From Pseudobutyrivibrio sp. ACV-2 (lineage in GTDB: Bacteria; Bacillota; Clostridia; Lachnospirales; Lachnospiraceae), in the NCBI RefSeq assembly GCF_900107545.1, contig NZ_FNQZ01000001.1, positions 1 to 64,000 of the forward strand: a stretch of 64,000 bases of DNA, in the 5' to 3' direction. The translations under genes were made by a program, and so were the position numbers. Below, one piece after another: positions 1,094 through 21,600 of this stretch (its first letter is position 1; each line of letters starts with the position of its first letter). The notes under the pieces are model-generated. The model made no database searches. It was not told where the DNA came from and worked only from the letters and a program-made list of their open reading frames with translations.

Positions 1094-2188
1094 ATGGGTA
1101 ATAAATATTGTGGGAAATTAAAAAAGACTGCGGAGCGGATGGTAATTCGCGATGGACAAACGATATCTTCCGTTCTGATTAACAGTCCTTATAGGACAAT
1201 AGTGTCAATGTTGTTGTTGCCTTACGCAGGTCTTTATTGCAAAGAGGCAGAAGAGTTTTATGGGAAAAAGGTTGTTTCTCCAGAAATCGATACTCAGATT
1301 GTAGACTTACGAAATTCAATCAAGATATTTTGCGGAAAGTATAACGCATTAGAAAGAGAGTTCTTACTTTCAGATGAAGAACAAGATGAATATTTCAAGA
1401 GTCTTCTCAGATTTGATTTCGTTAGACAGATGAATATTCATTATAATTTAGGAATATATTTTGATAATGATGGGCATGTTATCGGCAATACTCAGTTAAT
1501 CAATTTTCATTTGAAAACTGTGACTATGGGGGATTCTGATGCAAGTGTGAAAGTATATAAGCTTGGAAATGCAGTTGGTGTATCTGTTAAGCGTATATTA
1601 ATGTTTTCGAATACAAAAGTTAACACTTGGATTCCTAAAGGAAATCGAAATTTCTGTGTAGGATATATTGATTATAACTCAAATAATGATAATTCTCCTT
1701 TTGTATATGATGGACAAAAAGGGCTAAATCTTTTGATGCTTCATATTCTTGGGTTACTTGGTATATGTAAATATGTGCTTAGAGTTTTTTTTAATGATAA
1801 CAATCAGTGGTTATATCGTTGTGAATATGTTATTTCTCATAATATATGGACAGGGTTGAGGATAATAAAAGCTCATTATGAACAGGATAAATCACTTGAT
1901 ATCGATTTAGATTTTTTAGCGAAACTAGTCGAGCACGGAAGGAATTTATTCCCATCCTCATATAGAAATTGTATGATGCATTACAATTTAGTTCATGAAG
2001 GGGAGCCTTGTATTAAAGAAGAGTATTACAGACCTGACATTCCATTATATGGTTTAGTTGAAAGCTGTTTTTCTGGTAAAACAGCTGCAGAGTATTACAG
2101 TGATTTAAGGTCGTATATAGATGAGGTAGAAGATTATCTAATTACTTGGTTTACTTTTGATTATGCAAAAATTCGTTGGGATTTATAG
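1094..2188 (+). CDS. HEPN-motif protein of unknown family
   Basis: This 364-aa soluble protein starts at an ATG preceded by GGTAGGAG. I do not recognise the whole family. Near the C-terminus, residues 291-296 read R-N-C-M-M-H followed by Tyr. This is the Rx4-6H form, with the common Arg-Asn start, of HEPN ribonucleases. HEPN proteins are RNases in many toxin-antitoxin, abortive-infection and CRISPR effectors, so an RNA-cleaving effector is a reasonable inference. It is the first gene of a same-strand set; the next gene starts 24 bp downstream. The motif could be fortuitous, since the flanking helices were judged only by eye. Confidence 0.5.
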   Translation: MGNKYCGKLKKTAERMVIRDGQTISSVLINSPYRTIVSMLLLPYAGLYCKEAEEFYGKKVVSPEIDTQIVDLRNSIKIFCGKYNALEREFLLSDEEQDEYFKSLLRFDFVRQMNIHYNLGIYFDNDGHVIGNTQLINFHLKTVTMGDSDASVKVYKLGNAVGVSVKRILMFSNTKVNTWIPKGNRNFCVGYIDYNSNNDNSPFVYDGQKGLNLLMLHILGLLGICKYVLRVFFNDNNQWLYRCEYVISHNIWTGLRIIKAHYEQDKSLDIDLDFLAKLVEHGRNLFPSSYRNCMMHYNLVHEGEPCIKEEYYRPDIPLYGLVESCFSGKTAAEYYSDLRSYIDEVEDYLITWFTFDYAKIRWDL

Positions 2189-2212
2189 ATGTAATGTTGT
2201 GAAGGGAGTTTT

Positions 2213-2701
2213 ATGGATTTAAATGGATTAGATAGAGTATTTGCTAATTCTGCAAGGCGGGTTGCGGAAATACATAATGCCATGGATGCAATGAATAGTA
2301 TTAAAATTGAAGCAGACAAGAAATATGAACGGCGTGAAAAGGAGAACCACGATAATATTGAGTATCTTTCAAAAAGCGCCCAAGAATCGAATCAGATTCT
2401 AAGGGAAATGAATGAAATGCTAAGACAGAATAATGCATTACTTTCAGAAAAAAATGAAATGCTTGAGAATTCTTTAGAAGGAATAAATCAGTTATTACAG
2501 AATATATTTGATTTGAATACAATAAATAGCGAGGAGCAGAAAGAATTGCTACAACAGGCAAATGCATTAGCTTGTGAAATAGCGGTTTCTCTTGATAAAG
2601 GAGAGAAAATAAACTGGAAAGATAAAGCTGCTGATGTGGGGGTTCAAACTGTTGTATCAGCAATAGGATTATTGCTTCGCATGAAGGGAATTATTATTTA
2701 A
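2213..2701 (+). CDS. Coiled-coil protein with hydrophobic C-terminal tail
   Basis: This is a 162-aa protein with an ATG after GAAGGGAG. Residues about 30-120 are dominated by Glu, Lys, Asn, Gln and Leu in heptad-like spacing, which predicts a long coiled coil. The last about 22 residues form a hydrophobic or amphipathic helix rich in Val, Ile and Leu (VVSAIGLLLRM), suggesting membrane association. I recognise no family. It lies between the HEPN-motif gene and the KAP NTPase with gaps of 24 and 29 bp, so it is probably a structural or membrane-targeting partner in the same complex. KAP NTPases often carry their own membrane segments; the one here does not, which fits a tail supplied by this protein. 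Confidence 0.6.
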   Translation: MDLNGLDRVFANSARRVAEIHNAMDAMNSIKIEADKKYERREKENHDNIEYLSKSAQESNQILREMNEMLRQNNALLSEKNEMLENSLEGINQLLQNIFDLNTINSEEQKELLQQANALACEIAVSLDKGEKINWKDKAADVGVQTVVSAIGLLLRMKGIII

Positions 2702-2730
2702 TAACGAATAGAATTATTTGAGGGAGAGGT

Positions 2731-4665
2731 ATGACGGAGAAACAGATAGTAGATGAAATTCTTAGATATCTAAAAGATGATACATATAATTATGCGGTTC
2801 TTATTGATGGGGAATGGGGCTGTGGTAAAACTTACTTTGCAAAGAATGCTCTTACAGATGCTATAGAAAATCAAGAGGAGCATTGTGGAAGAAAAAGGGC
2901 AATAAAATATATTTCACTGTATGGCTGTAAAACAATTAGTGATGTACAAGAGAACATTGCATGGAATTTTGCAGAAAATGCACAGGCTAAAATTAGGGAT
3001 AGGCTTCATTGGAAAGATAGGGCAGACACAGTTGTTGGAAATGCGGTTAACACATCAAGACAAATCGGAAACATTATCCTGAAAAAGTATTTACCTGAAG
3101 CAGCTGTTTATAAAATAGCGGCTGAATGGTTAGACTTGGGGTCATTTATTTTTCTTATAGATGATTTAGAGCGTTGTGAGTGTCCTATTAATGAAGTTTT
3201 TGGCTTTTTCAATGAATTAGTTGAACATGAAGATACAAAAGTGATTTTTTTAGCTAATGAGAAAGAAATTTCAGGTTTCGCGGAGAATAATAATCTTGAA
3301 TTGCAATACCTATTGTCATTGAGTAAAGAGGTCGAATGGCCAAAGGGTGAAGATAGTTTCTTTTATCAGTTAAATAAAAGAAATAGTAATTTGCTTACAT
3401 TCGACGAGATGGAACGAAGGAGATCATTACTATTTCCACAGAAAGAGGCCAATGGCCAATATAGAAGGGTTAGGGAAAAATTAATTGGTGAATCATTAGA
3501 GTATACCCCGGATTTGAATAGCATAATTCCTAAGATGATTGCGCATACCTCTTGTTCAATGGAAGCAAAGGAAATCTTAAAAACTGAACTTGATTATTTC
3601 TGTAGTTCTATGAAGAGTTATAGACATTGTAATCTTAGAACGTTCCAATTTTTTATATCAAAGGTTATTTTTCTTTTGGATGAATTAGAAAAAGTCGATG
3701 GAATTGATGATGAACTGAAGGCAAAACTGCAACTTCGTATTTCATCTGATACATTTGTGAGTGTAGTGATATATAAATCGAATTATAAGCCACCAAAAGC
3801 ATCATTAGAATGGCTTAAAGATGAGCAAGAAGAAAAATCGACATTCATAAAAGAGTATATAGAAAATGGAAGATATGATTTTAAGACGTTTAGAGATAAT
3901 GTTTTTGTTTTACAAGAGATGCTTGCTACACATTTAGATGCGGACGATCCATTTAATATCGTATATCATGAGTACTATACTAAGACTCAGGATGAGTGCG
4001 AGAAAGCCTTAAATAGATTAGTACAAAGACTAAGTGAGGGAAGATATCCGACTTCTTTATACGCAAAGATAATTATGGGAACTCAGAGACTTATCGATTT
4101 GGGGTTTGCTGAGGCATACATGGATGATATAAAGAATTCCATGCTTAGAAATATTGAATCAAATGGTAATGTAGATAAAATTGATCCAGAATTGTGGTAT
4201 TTAGATGATAAGGCATTTAAGGAACGAGTATCAGTTCACATTAATGATATAAATGTGGCCATAACTAGTCGTTCTAATGATGCGAAGCAAAAGAGTATTC
4301 AAGAATTGTTAAATGAAGATGATTGGGTAAACAAACTGCAGACTTATGTTAATCCTACTAACGAAAGGTTTGTTCAGGATATTTCAGTTTTTGAGAAGGC
4401 ACCGGTAGAACAATGGATTAAGGCTATTCATAGTGCTACACCAATTGTTATAAATGATTTCAGAAAAGTATTAGGAGAAGTGTATCCTAGAGATGTGCAT
4501 AGAAAATCATTTGATATAGATAAGACTACGATTCTGGATATAAGAAAACAGTTAGATGAATTGGAAGAAACAGATTTGATAAAAAAAGCTTCGTTGGGGT
4601 GGTTAGCATACCAGTTTGATGAAATTATAAGGCAACATATGCCTTTAGTTAACAATGAAGGATAA
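2731..4665 (+). CDS. KAP-family P-loop NTPase
   Basis: This is a 644-aa protein with an ATG after GAGGGAGAGG. The Walker A motif GEWGCGKT is at residues 27-34 and Walker B (FLIDDLE, with Asp144-Asp145) follows after a short spacer. This is the layout of KAP/STAND-like NTPases found in anti-phage systems. The two membrane hairpins often inserted between Walker A and B in KAP proteins are absent, so it appears soluble. The C-terminal about 450 residues are helical, of unknown fold, and probably a sensor or scaffold region. It lies between the coiled-coil gene and the DUF262 nuclease gene with gaps of 29 and 32 bp. The defence role is inferred from family and context. Confidence 0.75.
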   Translation: MTEKQIVDEILRYLKDDTYNYAVLIDGEWGCGKTYFAKNALTDAIENQEEHCGRKRAIKYISLYGCKTISDVQENIAWNFAENAQAKIRDRLHWKDRADTVVGNAVNTSRQIGNIILKKYLPEAAVYKIAAEWLDLGSFIFLIDDLERCECPINEVFGFFNELVEHEDTKVIFLANEKEISGFAENNNLELQYLLSLSKEVEWPKGEDSFFYQLNKRNSNLLTFDEMERRRSLLFPQKEANGQYRRVREKLIGESLEYTPDLNSIIPKMIAHTSCSMEAKEILKTELDYFCSSMKSYRHCNLRTFQFFISKVIFLLDELEKVDGIDDELKAKLQLRISSDTFVSVVIYKSNYKPPKASLEWLKDEQEEKSTFIKEYIENGRYDFKTFRDNVFVLQEMLATHLDADDPFNIVYHEYYTKTQDECEKALNRLVQRLSEGRYPTSLYAKIIMGTQRLIDLGFAEAYMDDIKNSMLRNIESNGNVDKIDPELWYLDDKAFKERVSVHINDINVAITSRSNDAKQKSIQELLNEDDWVNKLQTYVNPTNERFVQDISVFEKAPVEQWIKAIHSATPIVINDFRKVLGEVYPRDVHRKSFDIDKTTILDIRKQLDELEETDLIKKASLGWLAYQFDEIIRQHMPLVNNEG

Positions 4666-4697
4666 GAACAAAAATTATAGAAAAAGAATGTAAAAAG

Positions 4698-7265
4698 ATG
4701 GACGGAAAAGCAATTCGATTAGTACAATATTTGGAGGGGTCAGATAAACGATTTATTATTCCTGTTTATCAGAGAAATTATTCATGGAAAAAGGACAATT
4801 GTAGGCAGCTGTATGATGATTTGATTCGTGTAATAACTAATAAGCGAAAGATGCATTTCTTTGGGAGTATAGTTAGTGTTTACAATAGTTCTTACGAGGA
4901 ATACTTGGTTATTGATGGTCAACAAAGACTAACAACAATTTCGCTTTTGCTTCTTGCAATACATAATGCTTTGAAAGATGGGAAAGTTAAAAGTGATGAT
5001 GACAAACTTGAAAGCAGAGTTCTTGATGAATATCTTGTAGATAAATATGAGCCAACAGAAAAAAGAATAAAGTTAAAGGCTGTAAATAAAGATCTTGAAG
5101 CATTTACAAAGCTATTTGAAGAGGAACCGGAAGATTACCTTCATGATTCTGATATTACATTAAATTATGAGTATTTCTATGATCGGATTCAAAAAGAGGA
5201 AATAACAGCTGATCAATTATTCGATGCAATTAAAAAATTGATGGTTATAAATATAACAGTTAGCCCGGAAGATAATCCGCAATTAATATTTGAGAGTCTT
5301 AATTCAACTGGCGTAGATCTGACAGAAGGAGATAAGATTCGTAATTTCATTTTGATGGGACTTGAGCGTGATAAACAGGAAGAGTTCTATAAAAAGTATT
5401 GGGTCAAAATTGAATTGAACACAAAAGGAGATAATAACACTGATGTAAGTGCGTTTATTCGTGATTATCTCAGCATGAAAAATCTGGAGACACCTTCGTT
5501 AGATAAGGTATATCCCGTTTTCAAGCTTCATGTTCAAGGTAAGGGTATTGAAACAGAAGAGCTGTTACAGGATTTGTTGTATCACTCTAAAAATTATTCT
5601 GTATTATTAAAGGCCAATTTTGGAGATGAAGTGGTAGATGCAAGTATTGCAAGATTAAATCATTTAGAAACGGTTGTTTGTAGGCCATTCTATTTAGTTG
5701 TTTTAGATCATTATAAAAATGATGAATTATCAATTCAGGATGTTCGTGCAATAAGTAATGTTGTTGAGAACTACCTTTTTAGAAGAAATATATGTGATGT
5801 AGCTACAAATGCGTTGAATAAGATTTTCTTGCTATTAGATAGAGATATTTCAAAGCTGGAAGGTAGTTCATATGTTGAGAGGATGAAGTATGTTTTATCC
5901 ATGAAGAAAGAGAGTGGACGCTTCCCAACTGATACCGAATTTAGGCAGGCGTTATCTGAAAAGCAAGTATATAAAATGCGCGGACGCTATAAGACTTATC
6001 TATTTGAGCGCTATGAAAACTGGGGAACGGATGAGATTAAGGATGTATATCAAAGAATTGAATCTGGGAAATACACGATTGAGCATATTATGCCTCAACA
6101 TCTGACTCCGGCATGGGAAGAAGCTTTAGGACAGGATTATAAGCTGGTTCATGAAGAATGGCTGCATAGATTAGGAAATCTTACTTTGACTGCTTATAAC
6201 AGCACATATTCAAATAATACTTTTTTGGAAAAACGTGACGCTGAAAATGGCTTTGCTAATAGCGGAATTAGAATGAATATAGAGATTGCCAAGAAGGATA
6301 AATGGACATTAGAAGAAATCGAAGAACGTAGTGATAGGATGGTTGAGAAAGCCATATCAATATGGTCTTACCCGTACACTAATTATAAGCCAGCTGAGAA
6401 GGAGTTAGAATCTGTTTCATTAGACGATGATGATGTTGATTTGACTGGATGCACTCTTGCTAAGTTTTCATTTAAAAATGCTGAGCAGCCTGCAGAGAGT
6501 TGGACGGATATGTATGTTAAAGTGCTGAAAATGCTTCATTCAGATGATGCATCGTTATTGACAAGATTAGCATATGAAAATGATGTTAATGTAGACTTAT
6601 CTACATATTTTTCCACAAATGAAAATGCGTTCAATAGTAATTCAGAAATTGCAGCAGGCATATATGTACTTACTGGTTTATCAACTCAACAAAAAGCTTC
6701 TGTTCTTAGACGTGTTTTTAAATTATATGGAGTTGATGCGTCAGAATTAGTATTTTTTTTGAAAGATCAGGAAACAGAGGAAAAAGCGGTTAAGAGTGAA
6801 GCTGCTAGATTTGAGTTAAGAAGACGTTATTGGAGTTTTGCATTGCCATATATTCAGAAAGAGCATGGTGTAAATGGTTCTTTCAGTAATGTTCATCCTG
6901 GCAAGGATAATTGGTTATCAGGGTGGTTTGGAATTAGTGGATTCAATGTGAGCTGCGTAGCAAATTATGACTTGGCGCGTATAGATTTTTATATGGGTAA
7001 ATCAAATAGAGATTTGAATAAACAGGCCTTTGATTTGCTTGTGAAACATAAATCTGAAATTGAAGAAGAATTAGGTGTTTCTCTTAACTGGGATCGAGGT
7101 GAAAATATAAAAGCTTCTTTTATATCATATGCCTTAAATGGTGTGAGTATTACAAATGAAACTGATTGGATACGTATGGCAAAATTCCATGCTGAGTGGA
7201 GTAAAAAAATATGTGATGTGTTATTGCCATATTTAAAGGATTTGTATCCAGATGTTAAAGCGTAG
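4698..7265 (+). CDS. GmrSD-like nuclease: DUF262-DUF1524 with C-terminal DUF4268
   Basis: This is an 855-aa protein. Residues 21-30 (IPVYQRNYSW) and 73-77 (DGQQR) are hallmarks of DUF262, the ParB/Srx-like NTPase domain of GmrS. Residues around Glu462-His463 (EHIMPQ) and the LGNLTLT stretch near 492 are the HNH-type DUF1524 domain of GmrD. After about residue 690 a separate region with FELRRRYW, WLSGWFGISG and RIDFYMG segments resembles DUF4268. GmrSD-type enzymes cleave glucosylated or hydroxymethylated phage DNA (type IV restriction). The start has no strong Shine-Dalgarno (AAAAGAATGTAAAAAG upstream), which suggests coupling to the KAP gene 32 bp before. Confidence 0.85.
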   Translation: MDGKAIRLVQYLEGSDKRFIIPVYQRNYSWKKDNCRQLYDDLIRVITNKRKMHFFGSIVSVYNSSYEEYLVIDGQQRLTTISLLLLAIHNALKDGKVKSDDDKLESRVLDEYLVDKYEPTEKRIKLKAVNKDLEAFTKLFEEEPEDYLHDSDITLNYEYFYDRIQKEEITADQLFDAIKKLMVINITVSPEDNPQLIFESLNSTGVDLTEGDKIRNFILMGLERDKQEEFYKKYWVKIELNTKGDNNTDVSAFIRDYLSMKNLETPSLDKVYPVFKLHVQGKGIETEELLQDLLYHSKNYSVLLKANFGDEVVDASIARLNHLETVVCRPFYLVVLDHYKNDELSIQDVRAISNVVENYLFRRNICDVATNALNKIFLLLDRDISKLEGSSYVERMKYVLSMKKESGRFPTDTEFRQALSEKQVYKMRGRYKTYLFERYENWGTDEIKDVYQRIESGKYTIEHIMPQHLTPAWEEALGQDYKLVHEEWLHRLGNLTLTAYNSTYSNNTFLEKRDAENGFANSGIRMNIEIAKKDKWTLEEIEERSDRMVEKAISIWSYPYTNYKPAEKELESVSLDDDDVDLTGCTLAKFSFKNAEQPAESWTDMYVKVLKMLHSDDASLLTRLAYENDVNVDLSTYFSTNENAFNSNSEIAAGIYVLTGLSTQQKASVLRRVFKLYGVDASELVFFLKDQETEEKAVKSEAARFELRRRYWSFALPYIQKEHGVNGSFSNVHPGKDNWLSGWFGISGFNVSCVANYDLARIDFYMGKSNRDLNKQAFDLLVKHKSEIEEELGVSLNWDRGENIKASFISYALNGVSITNETDWIRMAKFHAEWSKKICDVLLPYLKDLYPDVKA

Positions 7266-7411
7266 TTTATTGAAAAAAATAGTCTTATGACGCGGTGTTG
7301 TTATAAGCGGGGTAGAGATAGTATTGTAAATACGTTGAAGAATTACTACAACAGTAATACAATAAGTACTGGTCGCATGGCATCTTTCAGGAGGCTTTTT
7401 AAGGAGGTTTT

Positions 7412-8109
7412 ATGAAGTGGTTTTATGATATTATCCCTGGCAACGTAAAAAAATATGAGGCAACGAATAAAGAAAAAATTCACAGAATAAAAGTGTATCA
7501 TTTTTTCTACATTGTGGCTATTGTTCAATAGTATCTACATACTTGGTTTTCTATAACTGCATTGATGAAAATAGAAAATTGTCAGATACCATAGCTCTTG
7601 GTTCAATTTTTGCTACGTTTGGCTCTTCAGTGGTTGCTATTTTTTCTATGAGCTTAAATACTCTTTATGATAGATTTTTATCTGATTTTATGATTTTTTC
7701 TAAATCACTTGAGCCAGAGAAATATTGGATTCGTTGGTCTTTTATAAAAAGAAAATCGCATCATATTTTATATAACGGAGTGTCTACATATCAAGAATTG
7801 ACTAATTCTATGGTAAAGTTTAATGTTGGAAGTCATACTATAGAGTTTTTCATTCCAACGATAAAGGAAGATTTTTATGATTTACCTAATTGGAAATCTC
7901 TTTTAGTGATGAAAAAAAGAAAAAAAGATTATGAAAGCTATGTTTTAAATAATAGTGAGGAACCAGCAAATGCGCTAATGATATGGGATTGTATTTATGA
8001 TGAATTGTGTTGTATAGCAAAATATAGAATGGCTAGATTTGCTGTTGTACTTGGAGAAGCATACATATTAACAAGTATTATTATGGCGTTTTTATACAGA
8101 TTAATATAA
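7412..8109 (+). pseudogene. Small two-TM membrane protein, split by a frameshift
   Basis: An ATG at 7412 with a perfect AAGGAGG site opens a frame encoding MKWFYDIIPGNVKKYE and running into a hydrophobic stretch (HFFYIVAIV) before TAG at about 7529. The frame one base back continues the hydrophobic helix (SIVSTYLVFYN) and runs to 8109 with a second membrane segment around IFATFGSSVVAIF. A single base shift near 7525 would join them into one protein of about 232 aa with a short cytosolic head, two adjacent helices and a soluble domain. Downstream, only a TTG at 7543 without a good ribosome site could start the second part. The cause could be inactivation, phase variation, programmed frameshifting or a sequence error. 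The family is unknown. 7266-7411 holds only a doubtful 42-codon ORF (7287-7415). Confidence 0.6.
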
Positions 8110-8126
8110 CTGGGAGGTAAGATTAG

Positions 8127-9059
8127 TTGGCAGCAATCGCATTATATTTTGGAAAAGTAAACTTAGTGTCAGGAGAAATTAATGGTGTTATATATAATGA
8201 AATATCATTAAGAAACATTTTAGAGCAGGTGTCAGTTGCATTAGTAGATGGGATATCTTTTAAAACAGAGAAACCTATAAAAGTTGATGATGAATTTAAG
8301 TCAGAAGAAATAGAGTATTCATTAGCAATAAAGGAAAAAAATGATTCTTATGTGAGAGGATATATATATAAAAAATCATATATTCATTACAAAGATTATA
8401 ATGAGAATACAAAGGATTTAGATTCAAAAAAAATACCAAATACAGAAGGAGTAGAATTTCTTTATGAGTATTATAGAGAAATGATTGCTTACCAGCGTAC
8501 ACAAAGATTTGGATATAAAGAAGTATTAAATGCATTTGAAGGAATTATAAATTGTGCGTGCACAAATAATGGTTTGTCATATAAGTTCTCAATAGCACAA
8601 TATACAGAAGGACTTGAGCTGGATCAATTAAAAGATTATTTAATTGAGAGACCGGTTCAGGAATTAAATATTAAATATCAAATTCCTAATCCAAACTCAG
8701 AATTATTAGATAGTATACGAGCTAATCGTGAAAAAACTATAGAGGAGTTTACTGCTGCAAATTTAACAACTAAAAGTGTGATATATCACACAAATTCGAA
8801 GAAGGGAATAAATATAGAATCTGAAATGATTGAAAATGAACTAAATCATATTTCAAGTTTACATAGTGAAATAGATGTAAGTCATGCTTTACGAAATGGT
8901 TATGTTGTTGTTGAAGCAACAGACATTAATGGAGTAAAAAAATCTTCGGCTGATATGAGACCGTTAATAAAGCATATTGATGAAAGCATTGATTTTATGG
9001 AAGCTGCGCATAGTACTATTACGGCGTCAGTTGAACGAGAGATAAGAAAAAATCAGTAA
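8127..9059 (+). CDS. Hypothetical protein, partner of the frameshifted membrane protein
   Basis: This is a 310-aa soluble protein starting at TTG 8127, 7 nt after GGGAGGT; no nearer ATG fits. I do not recognise it. It begins with a beta-rich segment (IALYFGKVNLVSG), contains a mixed central domain and ends in a helical, charged tail. It has no signal peptide, membrane segment or obvious catalytic motif. It follows the membrane gene by 17 bp and is then isolated from the next gene by 359 bp, so the two probably form a pair. A sensor or activator plus membrane effector arrangement is conceivable but unproven. Its AT content is very high, as is typical of transferred accessory genes here. Confidence 0.55.
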   Translation: MAAIALYFGKVNLVSGEINGVIYNEISLRNILEQVSVALVDGISFKTEKPIKVDDEFKSEEIEYSLAIKEKNDSYVRGYIYKKSYIHYKDYNENTKDLDSKKIPNTEGVEFLYEYYREMIAYQRTQRFGYKEVLNAFEGIINCACTNNGLSYKFSIAQYTEGLELDQLKDYLIERPVQELNIKYQIPNPNSELLDSIRANREKTIEEFTAANLTTKSVIYHTNSKKGINIESEMIENELNHISSLHSEIDVSHALRNGYVVVEATDINGVKKSSADMRPLIKHIDESIDFMEAAHSTITASVEREIRKNQ

Positions 9060-9377: not shown

Positions 9378-9418
9378 GCTATTATTATGCCTTCTTATAG
9401 CAAAAGGAGGTGTCTATT

Positions 9419-10453
9419 ATGGATAGAAACGATATTTCTGCTATCCAAAAAATCATTGGTTATGAATTCCATAACAGCGACTTGTTACAGCAAGCATTTA
9501 TTAGAAGGTCTTATTCTAAGGAAAAGGGCGGAGAGAATAACGAGGTCCTTGAGTTCATAGGAGATAAGGTCTTAGATTTGATTGTTGTAAAAATTCTCTC
9601 AGAAGAATTTGGCTCTATAACGAGCGGAGACTTTCATGAGTTTGCATCTGAATATCAAGAGAATAAGCTCACTGAGATAAAGAAGCGTCTTGTTGAAAAG
9701 GATACACTTGCAAATTGTATGGATGACCTTGGATTAGCTGATTACCTAATTATGGGTGAGGGCGATCGAAAGAATCACGTTGAGAATTCGCCTTCTGTAA
9801 TGGAGGACTTATTCGAGGCAATTCTTGGTGCTGTAGCTATTGATTCAAATTATGATTTACAAGCTTTACAGGATGTAGTTGAACTTATGCTTAATCCAGA
9901 GACTTTGATTTTTGAGGATGAAATCAATTATATTCAAGAAGTTCAAGATTGGAGTATTCGAAGAACAGGAGAATTACCTGAACGTGAATTTCAAGTAAAC
10001 TATGGATATTATACGCCTAATCCAGCAATATTAAATCCACATTCTCCAGGAGTAAATGAAAGACATACTTGTTACGTTACTGTGGATGGCGTAAAAAAAG
10101 CTGTTGGACATGGAACATCTAAAGTAAAAGCTCATGAAGAAGCTGCGAAAGCAATCTATGATTATTTAGATGAAAATAATATGCTTTATACCATTCAGGA
10201 TGAAATTGATGAGCCATCACTGAATATGGCAATTAATCAGCTTGAAACACTTGCGCGAAGGGGCTATTTTTCCTTGCCAGAATATACAGCTGAAGAACAC
10301 CACGATGAGAATGGTAATCCCATTTGGCATGTGGAATGTCATATTGAAGAGGTTGAATATTACTTTGATGCAGAGTCTTCCTCAAAGAAGCAGGCAAAGA
10401 AACAAGCGGCTTATGATATGTTGATGTACGTTTTGGATGAGGAGGAACGCTAG
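9419..10453 (+). CDS. RNase III-like protein with two dsRNA-binding domains
   Basis: The start chosen is ATG 9419, 8 nt after AAAGGAGG; a GTG at 9410 overlaps that site. The 344-aa protein begins with an RNase III catalytic domain. Its signature NEVLEFIGDKVLD carries Glu45 and Asp49, and EDLFEAILGA carries Asp130 and Glu133, so the metal site looks complete. Two dsRNA-binding-like segments follow, at about residues 165-245 and 260-340, each ending in a KxKAHEEAAKAIYDYL or SKKQAKKQAAYDML type helix. The housekeeping bacterial enzyme is about 230 aa with one such domain. This is therefore probably an accessory RNase III acting on particular dsRNA, possibly phage or mobile-element RNA. It stands alone with its own promoter. 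Confidence 0.8.
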   Translation: MDRNDISAIQKIIGYEFHNSDLLQQAFIRRSYSKEKGGENNEVLEFIGDKVLDLIVVKILSEEFGSITSGDFHEFASEYQENKLTEIKKRLVEKDTLANCMDDLGLADYLIMGEGDRKNHVENSPSVMEDLFEAILGAVAIDSNYDLQALQDVVELMLNPETLIFEDEINYIQEVQDWSIRRTGELPEREFQVNYGYYTPNPAILNPHSPGVNERHTCYVTVDGVKKAVGHGTSKVKAHEEAAKAIYDYLDENNMLYTIQDEIDEPSLNMAINQLETLARRGYFSLPEYTAEEHHDENGNPIWHVECHIEEVEYYFDAESSSKKQAKKQAAYDMLMYVLDEEER

Positions 10454-12402: not shown

Positions 12403-15400
12403 ATGGCTAAGTATTTACAAGGTCAACTCATAGTTCTTAAATCTGATAAAAGTGTAGAAGGTGCTATAATGCAAGTTATTGAGGGCACGCCAGAAACACG
12501 TTACCAGGTTTTTACAGCTAGTGGTCCGCAGATTTACTATGAATCTCAGTTAGAGGATAAAAAAGATTTATCTAATCAGTTAGAGCAGGTAGATGTTGAG
12601 AGATTCAATGCTGGACTAACAGCATCATTGATTAGAAATCCATCGTTGTCATCATTGTATTCGTTGAATGCAGCTAAAATAGATTACATTCCACATCAGT
12701 TTAGGCCAGTTCTTAAGTTTATACGTTCTGACAGACCACGTATTCTAATTGCAGATGGTGTTGGTGTAGGTAAGACAATTGAAGCAGGTCTTATTTTAAG
12801 AGAGATGCAGGCCCGAATGAATCTGGAGTCTGTTTTGATAATTTGCCCTCGTCCACTAGTTGCGGAGCGCAAGTGGGAAAGTGAAATGAAACGTTTTGAC
12901 GAGGAATTTACAGCTTTAGATGGTGAAACATTTAGATACTGCATCAAAGAAATGGACATGGAAGGTGATTGGCCTGATAAGTACAAGAAATGCATAATTC
13001 CATATTCTCTTTTTGATGATTCAAATATTAACGGTTCAAACAATGGTAGCCGTGCTAGATTAGGATTAACTGAAGTAGATCCACCTAAATTTGATTTAGT
13101 AATTGTTGATGAGGCTCATCATATCAGAAATACCGCCACATTTGGTTATAAGGCAGTTGAATATTTTGTTGATTGCGCGGAAGCAGTAGTATTCCTTACA
13201 GCTACACCTGTGCAGTTAGAGCAGGATGATTTGTTTGTGCTGCTTAATTTATTGCGTCCAGAATTAATTATTGATAGAAATACATTCCATGACATGGCTG
13301 AGCCTAATCAATATATTAATGCAGCAGCTATTGCTATTCGCGCTATGAAGGATGGTTGGCAAGAAACAGCACTTGAGGCTATAAAAAATGCTTGTGTTAC
13401 TAGTTGGGGGCAGAAAGTTTTCACAGGAAATCCAATTATCAAAAGAATTATTCAGACACTGCAATCAGACGGGATATCTGCAGAAGATAGAGTCCAGCTT
13501 ATCACAGATATAGAAAATTCTCATACATTCTCAAATATTATCAGTAGAACTAGGCGTAGGGATATTGGTGAGTTTACAGTACGTAAGCCATTTACAAGAT
13601 CTATTGAATTTACACCTGCTCAGAAGCAATTGCATGATGGTATTTTGGATATTATTCATCAGATTTTTTCAGCGATTTATTGTACCGACAATACTAAATT
13701 CATGATGACTACAATAAGGCGCCAGACAGCAAGCTGCTTGTTTGGTCTTGTTCCTATGCTTAATGATATTTTGTACAAGCACGTTTATGAGCTCGTTGAT
13801 GATGGCGAAGACTATGGCATCTCTATGGATAAAGAGAAAGATGCTAAGACTATTATTGAAAAGATTAAGGACATTATTGAATTAGCGGAGAGGCTTCCAG
13901 AGGATGATCCCAAACTAGAGGATATGCTTAAAATTGTAGATGCAAAGCTGGCTTCCGATAAGCCTAAGGTCATGATATTTAGTAGCTTTAAGCATACGCT
14001 TAACTATATTTATAAAAAGCTGATTTCAAGAGGATATAGAGTAGGTCTAATTCATGGTGATGTTCCAGATGAGGAGAGACGTAGCCTCCGTGAAAGATTT
14101 AATCCTCAGCAGACACCATCGGATAATCCATCAGCAATTGATGTATTACTTTTTTCAGAAGTTGGTTGCGAAGGTTTGGATTATCAATTCTGTGATTGCA
14201 TGATTAATTATGATTTGCCATGGAATCCAATGAGGGTTGAACAGCGTATTGGTCGTATCGATAGAAATGGTCAGACAAGCGAGAGTGTGTCAATCTATAA
14301 TTTGATTACTCCAGGAACTGTTGATGCAGACATTTATGACAGGTGCCTTATGAGAATCGGTGTTTTCCATAGTTCAGTAGGTGATTGCGAGGATATCCTT
14401 GGCGATTTAACAAGTGAGATTAAACGCATAGCAGAAGATTTTGAACTTACAGATGAGGAACGTAGGGCAAAGCTTCAGCAGCTTACTGATAACAAAGTCA
14501 GATACCTAAAAGAGCAAGAGGAACTTGAAGAGAAGCAGAGAGATTTATTTGGTATCAACATGCCTCAGAATGCTTTTGATGAAGAGGTAAAAGATGCTAC
14601 TAATTATTGGTTATCAGCTGAGAATATTCAAAACCTTGTTAGTGTTTATTTAAAGAATAGAACTGGAGAGGATAAAGATTATTTTTTAGGTGATAAGGAG
14701 CTGAAGACACTCAGATTATCTAAAGAGGCAAGACAGCTTTTACTAGATGATTTTAAGAATGAAAAGTTCAAACGTAGTGAGATGACTCGTTCCTGGGAAA
14801 AGTGGCTAAAATCAGGAGAGCAGCATATTCAAATAACATTTGATAACAACTGTAGTAAAGAGAATCCGAGAGTGATGTTTATAAATATTACTCATCCACT
14901 GGTTAAACAGGCTGCAGACTATCTTCAGAGCAAGGGTAAAGTTGTTTCTACACTGAAAGCTAAGACGAATGAAGTGGCACCTGGAGTATACCCATTTGCT
15001 ATTTTCCAGTGGAAGCTTTCAGGAGATAGAGAAGATATTCAAATGAAGCCTATATCTGCTAACGATGAATTGAATAAGGTGATTTTTGATTTACTAAAGA
15101 CAAGCAGGCAGGCTTCTATAGATGTAAATATGACAGAACATGATTGGGAAGCTGTAGAAACAGTGCATCATCAAATATGGGAAGAGGCGTTAGAAGAACA
15201 TAAAAGTAAGACACGCGAGATGATTCTTTACAAGGAAAGTAGTTTGAAAACTAGCCATAATGCTCGTATGGCTAGTCTTGAGGAGTCGTTACATAAGAGT
15301 AGTAATGCTACTAGAAGAATGCTTCAAGAAGGAAAAATCAAACGTGCAGTAGATGACTTTGAATATCATATGGCAAAACTGGAAGAGGCTAAGGAGAAGG

Positions 15401-15453
15401 CTGATATTTTATTTGAGTTGCTTTCATATGGATTACTTGAGGTTGAAGCTTAA
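12403..15453 (+). CDS. SNF2-type (SF2) helicase, first gene of a three-gene module
   Basis: This is a 1016-aa protein with an ATG after GAGGGG. The Walker A motif DGVGVGKT ends at Thr125, the DEAH box is Asp236-His239, and FLTATP follows. The C-terminal helicase lobe carries LIHGD, SEVGCEGLDYQ and the motif VI stretch QRIGRIDRNGQ near 614-624. These are the features of RapA/HepA- and DrmD-like SNF2 ATPases, which translocate on double-stranded DNA or remodel protein-nucleic acid complexes. About 300 residues after the motor are unassigned and rich in charged helices. It is followed after 20 bp by the sacsin-like gene. It resembles the DISARM helicase DrmD, but no other DISARM gene is present. 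Confidence 0.85.
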   Translation: MAKYLQGQLIVLKSDKSVEGAIMQVIEGTPETRYQVFTASGPQIYYESQLEDKKDLSNQLEQVDVERFNAGLTASLIRNPSLSSLYSLNAAKIDYIPHQFRPVLKFIRSDRPRILIADGVGVGKTIEAGLILREMQARMNLESVLIICPRPLVAERKWESEMKRFDEEFTALDGETFRYCIKEMDMEGDWPDKYKKCIIPYSLFDDSNINGSNNGSRARLGLTEVDPPKFDLVIVDEAHHIRNTATFGYKAVEYFVDCAEAVVFLTATPVQLEQDDLFVLLNLLRPELIIDRNTFHDMAEPNQYINAAAIAIRAMKDGWQETALEAIKNACVTSWGQKVFTGNPIIKRIIQTLQSDGISAEDRVQLITDIENSHTFSNIISRTRRRDIGEFTVRKPFTRSIEFTPAQKQLHDGILDIIHQIFSAIYCTDNTKFMMTTIRRQTASCLFGLVPMLNDILYKHVYELVDDGEDYGISMDKEKDAKTIIEKIKDIIELAERLPEDDPKLEDMLKIVDAKLASDKPKVMIFSSFKHTLNYIYKKLISRGYRVGLIHGDVPDEERRSLRERFNPQQTPSDNPSAIDVLLFSEVGCEGLDYQFCDCMINYDLPWNPMRVEQRIGRIDRNGQTSESVSIYNLITPGTVDADIYDRCLMRIGVFHSSVGDCEDILGDLTSEIKRIAEDFELTDEERRAKLQQLTDNKVRYLKEQEELEEKQRDLFGINMPQNAFDEEVKDATNYWLSAENIQNLVSVYLKNRTGEDKDYFLGDKELKTLRLSKEARQLLLDDFKNEKFKRSEMTRSWEKWLKSGEQHIQITFDNNCSKENPRVMFINITHPLVKQAADYLQSKGKVVSTLKAKTNEVAPGVYPFAIFQWKLSGDREDIQMKPISANDELNKVIFDLLKTSRQASIDVNMTEHDWEAVETVHHQIWEEALEEHKSKTREMILYKESSLKTSHNARMASLEESLHKSSNATRRMLQEGKIKRAVDDFEYHMAKLEEAKEKADILFELLSYGLLEVEA

Positions 15454-15473
15454 TAATTAATTGGAGTTCAATA

Positions 15474-18400
15474 ATGGATTTATATGAGAAGATAAGGCAA
15501 GATAGCAAAGTTAAATATGGAACTGAAGTAAGCAATTATATTCAGCTTATTATTCAGCAGTATAGTGATCGTACTCACTTTATCTATGAGCTTTTGCAGA
15601 ATGCTGAAGATGCGGGTGCTACATATATAAAGTTTCATTTATTCCAAAGTAATCTCACTCTTTATCACAACGGAAGACCTTTTAACGAAGCAGACATAAA
15701 TGGTGTCTGTGGTATTGCAAGGGGAACAAAAGGTGACGGCACACGCATAGGTCACTTTGGAATTGGATTCAAAGCCGTCTACGGATATACCATGAATCCA
15801 GAAATTTATTCTGATAATTATTGCTTTAAGATTGATAGTTTTGTAAATCCGTATGAAATAAAGGGAAAGCCAGGCTTAGCTGCAAAGGAAACTTGTATGA
15901 TATTGCCATTTAATAATGAGGCAGTATCAGAACAAATTGCTTTTAGAGAAATAAAAGATGCGTTACTACATAAAATTAGTGCTGAAAGTATACTTATTCT
16001 TGACTCAATAAAAGATATTGAGATAAAGATTGAGGGAATGCCCGAAACCATCAGCATAAATAAAGAGAAGAGAGCTATAGATGGAGATAATGTTTACGAG
16101 TTAAACCTATTATCAGCTCATGGTGATAGAGAACAAGAACAGAACTATTTGTTCTTTACTGATGCAGAGAAAGAGGCTAGTGCTTTAATCTTTAGAGTAG
16201 ATAATAAAGAGATTCAAGCAGTAAAGAACAGCAAAATATACGCATTCTTTCCAACAGCAAAAGAAGCGCATCAAAATTTTTATATACATGCCCCATTTGA
16301 TACTACACCAGCCAGAGATAACTTCAAAGAAGGCGAAGACTTTGGTAAGCATAATATCAAGCTTGTAAATAATATTTGCAGACTTATTCAGTTTACATTT
16401 ATTTGGCTAAGAGATAATGGATATTTGACTTTCGAAGCTTTAAACAAGGTCTATCCAATATATGAGTATGAAGAAACTGATTTACTGTATGCCATATATG
16501 AAAATAGTATAGATTTTATTAAATCAGGAGAGCCATTACTTCCAACAAATACTGAAGGTGTTTTCAAAAGCATAAATGATATCTGTGTTCCAGAAAACAT
16601 GGGAATAGTTAATGTTTTCAATGATGAGGATCTTCAAAGAATAATTGGTAATCACAAAATCTTTTGGCTTTCTAAAGAAATATCAACAAGAGAATACGTT
16701 GATTTTAAGAAATTTTTGGATAAGAATTTTGAGTTTAAGACATACGAATGGCGGCATCTTGTCCTAAAGCTTACCGCAAGATTTCTAGAAGCGAAAAGCA
16801 TAACGTGGCTTGAAAGACTATTAGGAAATATAGAAGGATTTTGTGTAAAGAGAATAGACAACAAGAGTCATTATATGAATGTGTCAGCTATTCCATTTGT
16901 GAGGTTAAATAGTGGACGCCACATATGTGCCAAAGAAGATGGCAAATCTCTTGTTTATATCAATAATCCTTCCTCAGCCCCATATAAGATTGACAAAGCC
17001 TGCCTAGAAAATGACAGTATTCGCAGTTTTTATGAACGTGCTCTTAACGTATTTCCGTATAATATTGAACAGGATACTATCGATAAGATCTTGCCTAAAT
17101 ATGATTCTCCTGATGTTAAGTTTAAAACAGATAATCATATCAGAGAAAACATTCAAGACTTGAATCAGATTAAGGATGCCTTGCAAACTAGCCCTTATAT
17201 GATAGATGCAATTATTAATCGATATCTGGTTACGGACGGTCAAAATTGGTATAGACCAAGTGATTTATATATTCGCAGTAATGATGTTAGATGTGGCTAT
17301 GATCTAGTAAGAGGAATAATAGACATAAAGTATCTTGCTAATAGTTATTTTGATGATACAGTTCTGAATGTTTCTCTTGATGAGGATTTCTTTAAATCTA
17401 TTGGATGTCCAAAAGGATTAAAAGAATTGAATGTATCTAGAGAAGAGTATATAAGTAAGGTTAAAAAATACTGTGGAAAAGATATCGCTTTAGAATTAAA
17501 AACACGTGTTGTAGACAAAACATATATTTCTGAAAAATGGGGGTGGAGTTTTTCTTTTGAAGGATTTCCGCAGATATTTACTGATATTACACAAGAAAAA
17601 TCCAACAATATTGCTAGGTTTCTTAATGCAAATGAGCCTTACTTTACAATTAATGGAAATCTTGTAGGTTCAGATAGTAAATCATTTTCCGGTAATAGTG
17701 TAGATGGAATGGATGCTTACTCAATGTTAGGACTCTATCTGTGCTTCGAAAAATGGGTATATATTAAGTCAGACGATGAGGCGCATAGACCAATTGATGT
17801 AGATAGAGATGATTTATTAGATTTCTATAAGGCTTCCAAAAGAATTATTGATGCTCTTCCATTTAAAGAGACTAACTCTGAATTAGAAGAGCTTTTAATT
17901 GAAAAAATGGGGGCTAATAATGCTGAAGTTGCCAAGTTTATTCAAACGTTAATTAATAATCCAGAAGAAGCGTTAAGCTATAAGCGAGCCAAGGAAAAAA
18001 GTGAAGCTAAATTAGCAGCCCAAGAAGAAAAAAAGCGCAGTTTAAAAGATAGATTAGAAAGCAGTGATAGAGCGCAGCGTGAGGCTGTCAAGGGTAGGGA
18101 GTTTGAATCTAATCCAATTTCTGAGAAAGCATTAGAAAAACGTTCTAAGAAATTGGAAGAAGAGTTGGCTGCTTCTTTAGACAACCATATTAATGTTACA
18201 AGGGGAGTTCATTTCGCACGACGTGACTGTAACCTAGAGGAAAGGATGTTTTTAAAGGAGGAATATGAAGGCTATTGCCAGATATGTCAGAAAAGAATTG
18301 TTAAGTATGATGGTTCTTGTTACTTTGAGGCAATAAATGTCATTAAGCAAAGCACAATTTATGACGAGCTTGCTAATAGTTTTGGTCTGGGTTGGAATTC

Positions 18401-18620
18401 ACTGAGTCTTTGTCCCAATTGTGCAGCTGAATACAATTATTGCTCAAAAAAAATTTCTTCTATATATGAGCAGGTTATGTCTACTGAAATAGAACCAGAA
18501 TCAGAAGAATTCATTGATATTGATGTGGAAATCCCAGAGGGAAAACAACGGACGATTAAGTATAGTCCACGCCATTTCTTGGCATTAAAAAAAGCCTTTG
18601 AAGTATTAGCAAAGGAATAA
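15474..18620 (+). CDS. Sacsin/HSP90-like GHKL ATPase with C-terminal zinc site
   Basis: This is a 1048-aa protein. The N-terminal ATP-binding fold has the N box ELLQNAEDAGA (Glu39, Asn43, Asp46), a sacsin-type YHNGRPF in place of the usual DxGxG, and the lid/G2 motif GHFGIGFK (93-100). This is characteristic of sacsin and NO VEIN proteins rather than histidine kinases. A long middle region is unassigned. A coiled coil around residues 840-900 leads into a zinc-binding end with C935-x2-C938 and C980-x2-C983, the spacing of an HNH-like or zinc-ribbon fold, though no clear catalytic His pair is visible. It lies between two helicase genes with gaps of 20 and 9 bp and probably acts in a complex with them. 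Confidence 0.85.
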   Translation: MDLYEKIRQDSKVKYGTEVSNYIQLIIQQYSDRTHFIYELLQNAEDAGATYIKFHLFQSNLTLYHNGRPFNEADINGVCGIARGTKGDGTRIGHFGIGFKAVYGYTMNPEIYSDNYCFKIDSFVNPYEIKGKPGLAAKETCMILPFNNEAVSEQIAFREIKDALLHKISAESILILDSIKDIEIKIEGMPETISINKEKRAIDGDNVYELNLLSAHGDREQEQNYLFFTDAEKEASALIFRVDNKEIQAVKNSKIYAFFPTAKEAHQNFYIHAPFDTTPARDNFKEGEDFGKHNIKLVNNICRLIQFTFIWLRDNGYLTFEALNKVYPIYEYEETDLLYAIYENSIDFIKSGEPLLPTNTEGVFKSINDICVPENMGIVNVFNDEDLQRIIGNHKIFWLSKEISTREYVDFKKFLDKNFEFKTYEWRHLVLKLTARFLEAKSITWLERLLGNIEGFCVKRIDNKSHYMNVSAIPFVRLNSGRHICAKEDGKSLVYINNPSSAPYKIDKACLENDSIRSFYERALNVFPYNIEQDTIDKILPKYDSPDVKFKTDNHIRENIQDLNQIKDALQTSPYMIDAIINRYLVTDGQNWYRPSDLYIRSNDVRCGYDLVRGIIDIKYLANSYFDDTVLNVSLDEDFFKSIGCPKGLKELNVSREEYISKVKKYCGKDIALELKTRVVDKTYISEKWGWSFSFEGFPQIFTDITQEKSNNIARFLNANEPYFTINGNLVGSDSKSFSGNSVDGMDAYSMLGLYLCFEKWVYIKSDDEAHRPIDVDRDDLLDFYKASKRIIDALPFKETNSELEELLIEKMGANNAEVAKFIQTLINNPEEALSYKRAKEKSEAKLAAQEEKKRSLKDRLESSDRAQREAVKGREFESNPISEKALEKRSKKLEEELAASLDNHINVTRGVHFARRDCNLEERMFLKEEYEGYCQICQKRIVKYDGSCYFEAINVIKQSTIYDELANSFGLGWNSLSLCPNCAAEYNYCSKKISSIYEQVMSTEIEPESEEFIDIDVEIPEGKQRTIKYSPRHFLALKKAFEVLAKE

Positions 18621-18629
18621 GGGATTTTT

Positions 18630-21600
18630 ATGGCGCTTAGTTTTTTTACTCAAAGAGATATTGATAATTTTGATTTAAATAATATTCCAGAAGAGTTTGT
18701 TAATTATTTTAATGGGTTATCAGATGAACGAAAATCTGGGATTATTTCTTCGCGCCCAGAATTAGGACCAGCTCTTGGTTATAGTCAAAAAGCATCTTTT
18801 GATAATGCTGCGGTAGAAGATGATTTTATTGAATCTAATGAGGACATCTTAGAAAGTGATTTTGAAGATAACAATCAGGGTGAAGTGGTAATAGAAAAAA
18901 CAGATATTGAATCGCAAGAGGAATCAGATTCAGTTCGTTTGAAGGATATAGCCAATAATATTTATGAGTACATTGATTTTTCTATGTATTTAAATAAAGA
19001 TTTGAATCCATTTGAAGCATTAATTATTTCAAACGGGCAGAAAAAGTGCCGCATTCATAGAAAATCATTCAGTAATCTTCAATTTAAATATAAGGCTGAA
19101 CGAGGGGGCGTTTATGGCGTAGCCCCTTTGTATTGTGATGAATGTAAGCGTCTGTTCTTAGAACAAGATAGAAGTTCTACTGTTGAGAAAGCTCTGACAG
19201 AGCGAAACATTCAAGTGAAGTTGTACTCATTAGAGTTAACCAAAGCATTTATTAATTCATGCTTACCTGTAATTGAAATAACATCTGAATCTGAGATATA
19301 TTTTCCAGATTCTTGGGTGGAAGATAATCCAATGTGTCAGATTCATCATGAACCACTTGATGAAAGTGATTGCATTATAGGCGCAGAGGAAAATTGTATT
19401 AAGTTAAAGGTTTATTATTGCAGCACCTGTGACAAATATCTATTGCGTCGTTCTGCTGCTTTAGATTTAGAAGAGGAATGCTCATCTAAAGGTATACCAA
19501 TGCCAATAATAAAGCCATTGGTGGCTAAGAGTGTAAATGCCAAGCAGATTTTTAATCGAGATATTATTCCGGATTTCTTTATCCAAGAAGGTGAACAGTT
19601 TAATTACAAATATGGTAAGAATGATGAAATAGTTAATCTTTCAGAGAATGATACTATTGTTGTATCTGATTCTATATATTGCAGCTTATCTGGTCATGAT
19701 TGTGTTGAAACCATGGCTAACTTTGTTGTGGAATTAAAGAAGAAGAGCCATGTAAAGAAGAACTATGTTTGTTCTGTTGGTTATTGTAGTCAATGTAATA
19801 AATATTATTTAGCAGAGGAAGACTATAAAGTTGTATATTCTTTAGGACGTCCAGAAGTTAATGTCATAAGTGATATAGAGGATGCAGGTTATCAAATTAC
19901 ATCTGGTGAAGTATTTGAACTTGAAAAACAACATTTAGACGATTTAGAAAACGAATTTGATGAAATTACAGATTCAATTCATGATGCTAAGGATTATGCT
20001 AATCAATATGCAACATATAAAGGTGGCTATGATGAGGGAGGACTAAGTGTAGCCAAAGAGCGCAGCAAGAGAAAGTATGGAAAAAAGCTTGGCGATATAG
20101 ATAAATATAGAGCAAAACCATATTCTTATCGTGTCGATATTACATTTGCTGGTAAAACAGAAGTTTATTACATAGGTGCTGATGATATTGAATTTGAAGA
20201 CGGAAAACGCGTCTATTCTTTCAATAGTGATTTTGGTAGACAGCTTGTGAATATTAGAAATATCAATATTATCAAAGATGGAAAGCAGTATGATATTGCG
20301 CTTACTAGACAATTTGATATCGAGGCTGCTCAACTATATGGTTATGCGAATTTAAGAACAAAAGATGATTTAATATTTAGAGAAGGTATCACAGATCCAT
20401 TCCTTGTAAAGGTATTAAAGTTAAGAAAACAACAGCATAGTTTGGTTGATATTATAGCTACAGTTCAGGAGAATCAGAATGCAATTGTAGATGAAACTCT
20501 TTATAGTAATTTAATCGTACAAGGATGTGCTGGCTCTGGTAAGACAATGGTTCTACTTCATAGATTATCAGCTCTAAAATACAATCATCCTGAATTTGCT
20601 TTCGAAGATGCAGTTATTTTAACTCCGAATGAACAGTTTAATCTTCATATTCAGGGGTTGGCAGAAGGATTACAGCTTGGTAATATTCGAAGATTATCTA
20701 TAGAAGAATATTATCAAGAAGTATTATTAGACTATGATGAAGCTTTTGTTCCATCGTCTAGGGTGGCTAATGAAATAAATGTAAATCAGCAATTTGTAGA
20801 TTATATATATTCCGATGAATTCATAACAAAGATGAACGAGGCATTTGTCGAAGGTTTAGATGAACGAGGAACTTTAGGAGAAATGCTCGATAGTGTATGC
20901 TCATTTTTTAATGAGAATACCATAGATTTTGATAAATATTCACCAAGTGAATTGATGCCAGCTATTAAGCAGAAAAATGTCCATTTTGAAGCAATTGTAG
21001 CTGCTCAAGATCAGGAATATAAAGTTGTCAAAGACAAATATGACAATTTATTATCTGAACTTGAGAAAATTAATAAGGAATTACCAAAGGCAAAGAAGAG
21101 AGCAAATAATATTGTGAAGGAGGTAATTCCATCTGTATACTTTAAGCTAAGTGAATATGATAGTAATCATGAGAAAGGAATCTATGGAATACAGTCAGAA
21201 TTAAAACGTTTGCAAGAAGAAGTAAAAAAGACGGAATCACAGTTCTTACCATTTGGGAGAAAAGCTAAACTTGAGGAACTAGATCGTGAAATAGATAAAA
21301 TCAAACGGCATCGTGCAAATATAATAAAAAAGTTTAAATTAGCGAATGAGGAACTAGCGGAAGATTTAAGTGAATTATCAGATGAAGAGATTATTTCATG
21401 GATACAAAAGGTGACATTGTATGTTCCTGAAGTAATGGATGAAGTAAGGCAATGCGTGAATATCAAAAATGCCTATAAAAATCTACAAAAACAAAAGGAA
21501 GATACATTAGCACTAACCCTAGAAGAAAATACAACAATGTTGCAAATGGAAAAGAATCTTTATCCAGATGAAATTAAAAAGGCTATAGTATATATTTCTT

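Follow-up and report, generated by a model that had tools for sequence, protein, structure and literature searches.

Several single-gene defence systems resemble parts of the locus described here. Tha is a tail-activated HEPN anti-phage protein of Staphylococcus phages (PMC11087260), whereas AbiF and AbiD (the Abi_2 family) are prophage-borne, single-protein HEPN abortive-infection systems in which the R and H residues lie five residues apart (PMC12373285). The KAP defence protein Tmn has two transmembrane domains (PMC11846954), and the GmrSD_N, GmrSD_C and DUF4268 domains have been described together for fused GmrSD enzymes (PMC4619093). We analysed a 64,000-nucleotide stretch of DNA from the gut-type bacterium Pseudobutyrivibrio sp. 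ACV-2 (the window), which begins at base 1 of the 592,094-bp contig NZ_FNQZ01000001.1, so that its upstream side is bounded by the contig edge. Four adjacent genes at 1094-7265 encode, in order, a putative HEPN RNase of an unnamed family, a coiled-coil-like protein, a KAP NTPase and a predicted GmrSD-type nuclease. These genes are probably a defence-island stack of autonomous, independently mobile anti-phage genes. The likelihoods that we attach to this reading and to those weighed below overlap and need not sum to one.

Four closely spaced genes

The four open reading frames (ORFs) lie on the + strand at 1094-2188, 2213-2701, 2731-4665 and 4698-7265 and are separated by gaps of 24, 29 and 32 bp, exactly as reported in a first-pass annotation made from the sequence alone. 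By codon usage each gene scores higher in the frame assigned to it than in any other. By eye, the ribosome-binding sequence is good ahead of each of genes 1-3 and weak ahead of gene 4, and a simple scan of the + strand saw no terminator-like site between the genes. A single transcript across all four genes is plausible, and their transcription is probably shared.

Gene 3 (2731-4665, + strand) encodes a 644-residue KAP P-loop NTPase of the PADLOC PDC-S49 type. The protein matched PF07693 (KAP) with an E value of 2.1e-10 and 40.8 bits against a cut-off of 20, and PDC-S49, a single-gene candidate, at 6.3e-43; PDC-S49 models were also matched by all nine KAP relatives tested from the 44 that were fetched. 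The Walker A and Walker B motifs read GEWGCGKTYF and FLIDDLERC, and the motif columns are invariant in five sequences. The highest hydropathy of any 19-residue stretch is 1.36 and the protein has no membrane segment. The first-pass annotation had thus been right both in calling gene 3 a KAP NTPase and in noting that the usual membrane insert is absent. KAP proteins of this form are common in the gene-3 group: in a survey in which some ORFs were truncated, 36 of 44 loci had no 19-residue stretch reaching a hydropathy of 1.6, seven had values of 1.6-1.88 and one (L098) reached 2.99.

Gene 4 (4698-7265, + strand) encodes an 855-residue protein with the features of a fused GmrSD-type (DUF262-DUF1524) modification-dependent nuclease that ends in DUF4268. 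The Pfam matches were to GmrSD_N (1.2e-35; 123.9 bits, cut-off 33.2), GmrSD_C (2.5e-27; 95.9 bits, cut-off 23) and DUF4268 (1.6e-28), and a DGQQR motif and HNH-type residues are readable in the sequence. These domains agree with the modified-DNA nuclease proposed for gene 4 in the first-pass annotation, an activity that is predicted from the sequence. Relatives of gene 4 are present in 17 of 250 genomes of the family at E ≤ 1e-30, its own genome included.

The recognisable genes occur apart elsewhere

Gene neighbourhoods were scanned with profiles for gene 1 and the KAP gene and with single-sequence searches for genes 2 and 4. For gene 1, 26 loci were taken, 25 of which had a confirmed homologue or fragment (L024 had none, L051-L053 were partial and L022 was split); the addition of four more distant loci, compared by blastp, gave a total of 29 other loci, with L023, which is the same place as L047, left uncounted. 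For the KAP gene 44 loci were fetched, which are not all of the KAP matches and include none of 18 plasmid records. For GmrSD, 14 loci were scanned of 17 other matches. A KAP or gene-2 homologue was found at none of the 29 other gene-1 loci, gene 1 or gene 2 at none of the 44 KAP loci, and gene 1, gene 2 or the KAP gene at none of the 14 GmrSD loci. The single-sequence search likewise found no GmrSD in the 25 confirmed gene-1 loci. The first-pass annotation had read genes 1-3 as a sensor-NTPase-effector set and had named a gene-neighbourhood survey as the way to check it; the survey found no recurrent linkage to the KAP gene from either side. Its suggestion that the membrane anchor is supplied in trans is likewise not supported: KAP relatives up to 50% identical to gene 3 lack a gene-2 homologue and membrane-free KAP proteins are, as noted above, common. 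A partial literature search found no paper on the four-gene order or on the gene-1 family, although absence from print is not claimed.

The distribution of gene-1 homologues is patchy. They were found in 4 of the 250 family genomes (own included, and counting G084, which was unconfirmed by profile), in 1 of 29 genus genomes (its own) and in 5 of 391 class genomes (own included). The homologous loci comprise 21 in named genome contigs, one in a viral contig and two in plasmid-collection records, whereas none was found in phage records; most of the 27 sequences that were aligned come, by record title, from Clostridia and other Firmicutes. Inspection by eye placed one relative in a phage-like IMG/VR contig (L054), where it adjoins an FRG-domain gene, and others on a plasmid (L021), amid the genes of a type I restriction cluster (L039) and in a region that resembles a conjugative element (L205). 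About 100-190 bp of upstream DNA is common to six close homologues (L044-L047, L049 and L050), and the genes beyond it differ. Many KAP relatives are, by eye, single cargo genes of prophages, situated beside the integrase in P2-like prophages and past the amidase gene in those of Bacillus type, and the closest relative from a whole genome (L025, 50% identical) follows a helix-turn-helix gene and adjoins apparent Tn7-type transposition genes. The contexts of gene 1 and of the KAP gene are the marks of genes moving alone.

Some of these loci have additional features. At the loci of the six close gene-1 homologues (around 8.7-10.4 kb), the common upstream stretch has a sharp left edge in the five that were aligned (L047 left out). 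On the downstream side the common sequence runs for about 270 bp or more in five of the six and for about 60 bp in L047. L045 and L050 also have their next downstream gene in common, and three contigs (L044, L046 and L049) end less than 400 bp downstream. The gene-1 homologues of this group look like mobile-element cargo. In L049 the gene-1 homologue directly follows two genes that read as a nucleotide cyclase and an effector nuclease (6890-8255). One cyclase and one NucC are among the PADLOC matches listed for near ORFs, where the member is not named. In L075, a phage contig, the KAP gene (2661-4613; 48% identical to gene 3) has, by eye, a tail-assembly gene on one side and the tape measure gene on the other, an unusual site for cargo.

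Gene 2 and its possible partners

Gene 2 (2213-2701, + strand) is a real gene: its codon usage scores 0.287 bits per codon, and none of the five remaining frames exceeds -0.079. The product is a coiled-coil-like protein of 162 residues. A hydrophobic tail had been described for it, and a hydrophobic stretch is indeed present at the C-terminus, although it is only borderline (hydropathy of 1.66 at residues 144-162, with Arg and Lys within). Searches found no homologue besides gene 2 itself at E ≤ 0.001 in the 250 family genomes, at E ≤ 0.005 in the 29 genus genomes, or in plasmids, phages and viral contigs; weaker matches in 74 other family genomes were of the kind typical of coiled coils. The matches to domain libraries were weak and probably due to chance, the best being PF01496 (0.0012) and phrog_4780 (0.0043). 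Gene 2 is thus an orphan as far as sequence comparison reaches.

Gene 2 might belong to one neighbour only (it could, for instance, silence gene 1 or partner it, or serve the KAP protein as an adaptor), in which case the locus would consist of a two-gene unit plus two single genes. We consider this rather unlikely. The position of gene 2 between genes 1 and 3 and its own ribosome-binding sequence are consistent with such a unit, and some gene-1 relatives have small same-strand neighbours that encode a membrane protein (L021, by eye), a GIY-YIG protein (L034) or a DUF1643 protein (L033). However, these neighbours differ from one another and from gene 2, and the searches above returned gene 2 alone.

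Gene 1 encodes a candidate HEPN RNase

Gene 1 (1094-2188, + strand) encodes a protein of 364 residues, with an N-terminal domain and a predicted HEPN-type C-terminal domain at about residues 209-350. Searches of Pfam, PADLOC, NCBIfam and PHROGs gave nothing significant for the protein. When 21 family members were compared with Pfam, each model that was matched was matched by a single member, the best at E 0.017; with PADLOC, a single methyltransferase model was matched by 2 of the 21 (best 5.3e-4). The AlphaFold2 model of the whole protein, made with 21 sequences, was confident, N-terminal domain included (mean predicted local distance difference test score (pLDDT) of 88.2; predicted template modelling score of 0.89), and the isolated C-terminal domain, modelled with 17 sequences, had a pLDDT of 89.3. 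A second-look aligner gave HEPN-MNT toxin-antitoxin entries as the four best matches of the C-terminal domain, 6m6u (Z 9.5), 6m6w (9.4), 7bxo (9.2) and 5yep (9.2), with root-mean-square deviations of 3.2-3.5 over 110-114 aligned residues; the matched chains were taken as the HEPN ones from their length and helical fold. HEPN entries made up 11 of 50 rows among the matches listed, and a HEPN-MNT entry was also the top row for the whole model (Z 4.9).

The predicted catalytic motif, R291-N-C-M-M-H296, is encoded at 1964-1981 (+ strand). R291 and H296 are invariant in all 27 aligned homologues, and the residue after R291 is N in 24, S in two and G in one; for this position of the HEPN motif, N, H or D has been published (PMC12373285). 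The motif of gene 1 itself fits the HEPN R-polar-x3-H (R-x4-6-H) pattern. Because the top structural matches are HEPN proteins and R291 and H296 are invariant, the most likely identity of gene 1, as modelled, is a HEPN RNase. The first-pass annotation had picked out R291-x4-H296, which is present as RNCMMH, and had called gene 1 a possible HEPN RNase, a predicted activity to which the structural matches and the invariant residues now lend weight.

The same structural comparisons also hold points that count against this identity. Unrelated helical bundles appear from Z 8.8 downward, and matches of bundles below Z 13 can reflect a common arrangement; Foldseek found nothing significant for the C-terminal domain (best E 0.2) and no significant match for the whole model in PDB and BFVD. 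Gene 1 might then be some other helical-bundle protein in which the R-x4-H residues are structural. That explanation would suit the insignificance of every Foldseek match and the failure to detect any relationship in sequence to HepT, to Tha or to a Pfam family, but HEPN toxins are the four best neighbours of the isolated domain and provide over a fifth of the listed rows, and the R and H residues are never replaced among the homologues, so that we think it improbable.

A further idea is that gene 1 arose by internal duplication, such that a degenerate N-terminal HEPN-like half pairs with the active C-terminal half within one chain. In the AlphaFold2 model the two halves have helices and a hairpin in similar order. 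When the secondary structure of residues 30-175 was compared with shifted copies, the best of 90 shifts tried was 181, followed by 180, a register that superposes H116 on H296, and the best hhalign match between the halves fell in the same register, although it was not significant (E 0.25, probability 0.2%). The whole-string version of the test ranked shifts 181 and 180 only 7th and 9th of 220. A segment-shuffle control was not significant (583 of 2000 shuffles reached the observed value), a whole-profile self-comparison found nothing, and H116 is Tyr in 4 of the 27 homologues. The duplication seems doubtful to us; a tandem single-chain pair is permitted by these data, not demonstrated by them. 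If true, gene 1 would provide a minimal, Cas13-like HEPN pair inside a single molecule, acting with no guide RNA.

One machine or a stack of separate genes

Several observations weigh against a stack of autonomous genes. Several of the loci surveyed are short or are truncated where a contig ends, and L020 and L037, like L022 and L035, share one context. Gene 2 is known only here, so recurrence cannot judge its link to the KAP gene or to gene 1, and a fast-evolving coiled coil may escape sequence searches. At the KAP locus L030 the KAP gene is followed, 207 bp downstream, by a GmrSD_N gene that the single-sequence search missed; another KAP locus (L154) weakly matches the C-terminus of gene 4 at a distance of 3.6 kb; and at the gene-1 locus L047, 6.8 kb from the gene-1 homologue, blastp gave a weak match to residues 16-83 at the start of gene 4 (E 6e-4). 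GmrSD-like genes may therefore be paired with these genes in some cases. The tight spacing and common strand could also reflect a co-adapted operon in this lineage. Lastly, genes of defence type lie close to gene-1 homologues as well as far from them, so that the matches listed do not establish an enrichment nearby. In that scan (PADLOC, E ≤ 1e-10, 24 loci), 176 family models were matched in 88 near ORFs and 80 in 69 far ORFs, the models being redundant; the near set was 88 of 89 selected ORFs, one of 1306 residues being left out.

That genes 1-3 form one system, in which gene 2 senses and anchors at the membrane, the KAP protein transmits and the HEPN RNase executes, is very unlikely, and such a three-gene machine was rejected for lack of recurrence: it draws on the common strand, the gaps of 24 and 29 bp, the KAP protein without a membrane segment of its own and the weakly hydrophobic tail of gene 2, but the genes are linked at none of the 29 other gene-1 loci or the 44 KAP loci surveyed, KAP relatives at 50% (L025) and 48% (L075) identity lack a gene-2 homologue, the tail is borderline, and membrane-free KAP proteins are common in the group. 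We prefer the defence-island stack, and the four-gene arrangement is unusual only as far as defence islands are.

Other genes in the window

At the contig edge, the C-terminal fragment of an ISLre2-type transposase (73-654, + strand) marks mobile-element activity upstream and is not part of a system. Residues 6-150 of the fragment matched NCBIfam ISLre2 at 1.2e-18 (67.6 bits, below the 200-bit cut-off), and it matched PF06782 at 3.2e-10. Downstream of gene 4 are a gene for a small protein with two hydrophobic stretches (7410-8109) and a 310-residue gene (8127-9059), neither of whose products had a significant match in Pfam, NCBIfam or PADLOC. The first of these seems disrupted in its opening part, where a short frame that has a good ribosome-binding sequence ends immediately before the listed ORF, and the listed ORF carries on in a different frame. 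Next, at 9410-10453, comes an additional RNase III-like gene, whose product has two stretches of the double-stranded-RNA-binding type. This gene is rare, being found in 2 of 100 family genomes at E ≤ 1e-60 (own included), and a 50%-identical RNase III-like copy is present in L053 (11112-12236), about 1.6 kb from the gene-1 fragment homologue. Three large adjacent genes at 12403-22382 encode an SNF2-type helicase, a sacsin-like ATPase (PADLOC TmtA, 5e-43) and a UvrD-like helicase, and possibly constitute a second defence unit.

Proposed modes of action

The genes, their domains, the gene-1 motif and the lack of recurrence in the loci surveyed are observations; from them and from the known systems we infer the activities, and any anti-phage effect, as follows. 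Gene 1 would be a standalone abortive-infection RNase whose N-terminal 200 residues or so keep the RNase silent and sense an invader product. On triggering, by analogy with Tha and AbiF, two C-terminal HEPN domains would pair and cut RNA by means of R291 and H296, and the cutting would stop growth before phage release. Gene 3 would act as an autonomous KAP defence gene of the PDC-S49 kind with a nucleoside triphosphate-driven switch, and gene 4, from its family, as a fused GmrSD that cleaves modified phage DNA.

If so, the set of standalone abortive-infection RNases gains an unnamed HEPN-type family, in which the residues to mutate are clear and the N-terminal domain, predicted with confidence, may be what senses the phage. 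The locus also provides a caution, in that tightly packed genes of a defence island need not be one machine: the recognisable genes here occur apart elsewhere.

Comparison with known systems

Gene 4 resembles the fused GmrSD type IV enzymes in having GmrSD_N, GmrSD_C and DUF4268 in one chain, and nothing else unusual was seen in it. Gene 3, like PDC-S49 and Tmn, is a KAP P-loop NTPase, but it has none of the two transmembrane segments of Tmn (PMC11846954).

For gene 1, Rfam searches that covered 18 gene-1 loci and the window's first 9.5 kb found no abiF RNA motif (RF03085). The first 9.5 kb gave one sub-threshold, snoRNA-like chance match (4992-5052), and the 18 whole loci gave, at gathering thresholds, only tRNAs, Listeria rli38, pemK RNA, Staphylococcus-1 RNA and a group II intron. 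Among 18 gene-1 upstream stretches compared, sequence was common only to the L043-L050 group without L048. Identity in this group is 81-100% upstream and 81-98% in the coding sequence, and therefore no extra constraint on the upstream DNA is shown. An AbiF-like RNA partner for gene 1 was rejected, as these searches gave no RF03085 match and the comparison showed no extra upstream constraint. None of the 21 gene-1 family members matches Abi_2 at E ≤ 1. Sequence kinship to HepT (nine proteins) or Tha was not detected either; the hhalign comparison with Tha gave a probability of 0.4% over 16 columns that lie outside the motif.

The likenesses are in form. Tha is, like gene 1, a single gene of about 300-360 residues with a C-terminal HEPN domain and with relatives on mobile elements (PMC11087260). 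The Tha-1 motif R265NSIMH270 and R291NCMMH296 of gene 1 are both R-N-x3-H, and both domains match 5yep, that of Tha-1 with a DALI Z of 9.9 (PMC11087260) and that of gene 1 with a VIA Z of 9.2. The N-terminal domain of gene 1 is confidently predicted, whereas that of Tha was not predicted with such confidence in PMC11087260. With AbiF and AbiD, gene 1 has in common the single-protein form and the R and H five residues apart. Descent from either is undetectable. Given the lack of sequence similarity to Tha, HepT and Abi_2 and of an abiF RNA, gene 1 therefore resembles these systems rather than belonging to them, and by analogy its mode of action would be like that of Tha or AbiF.

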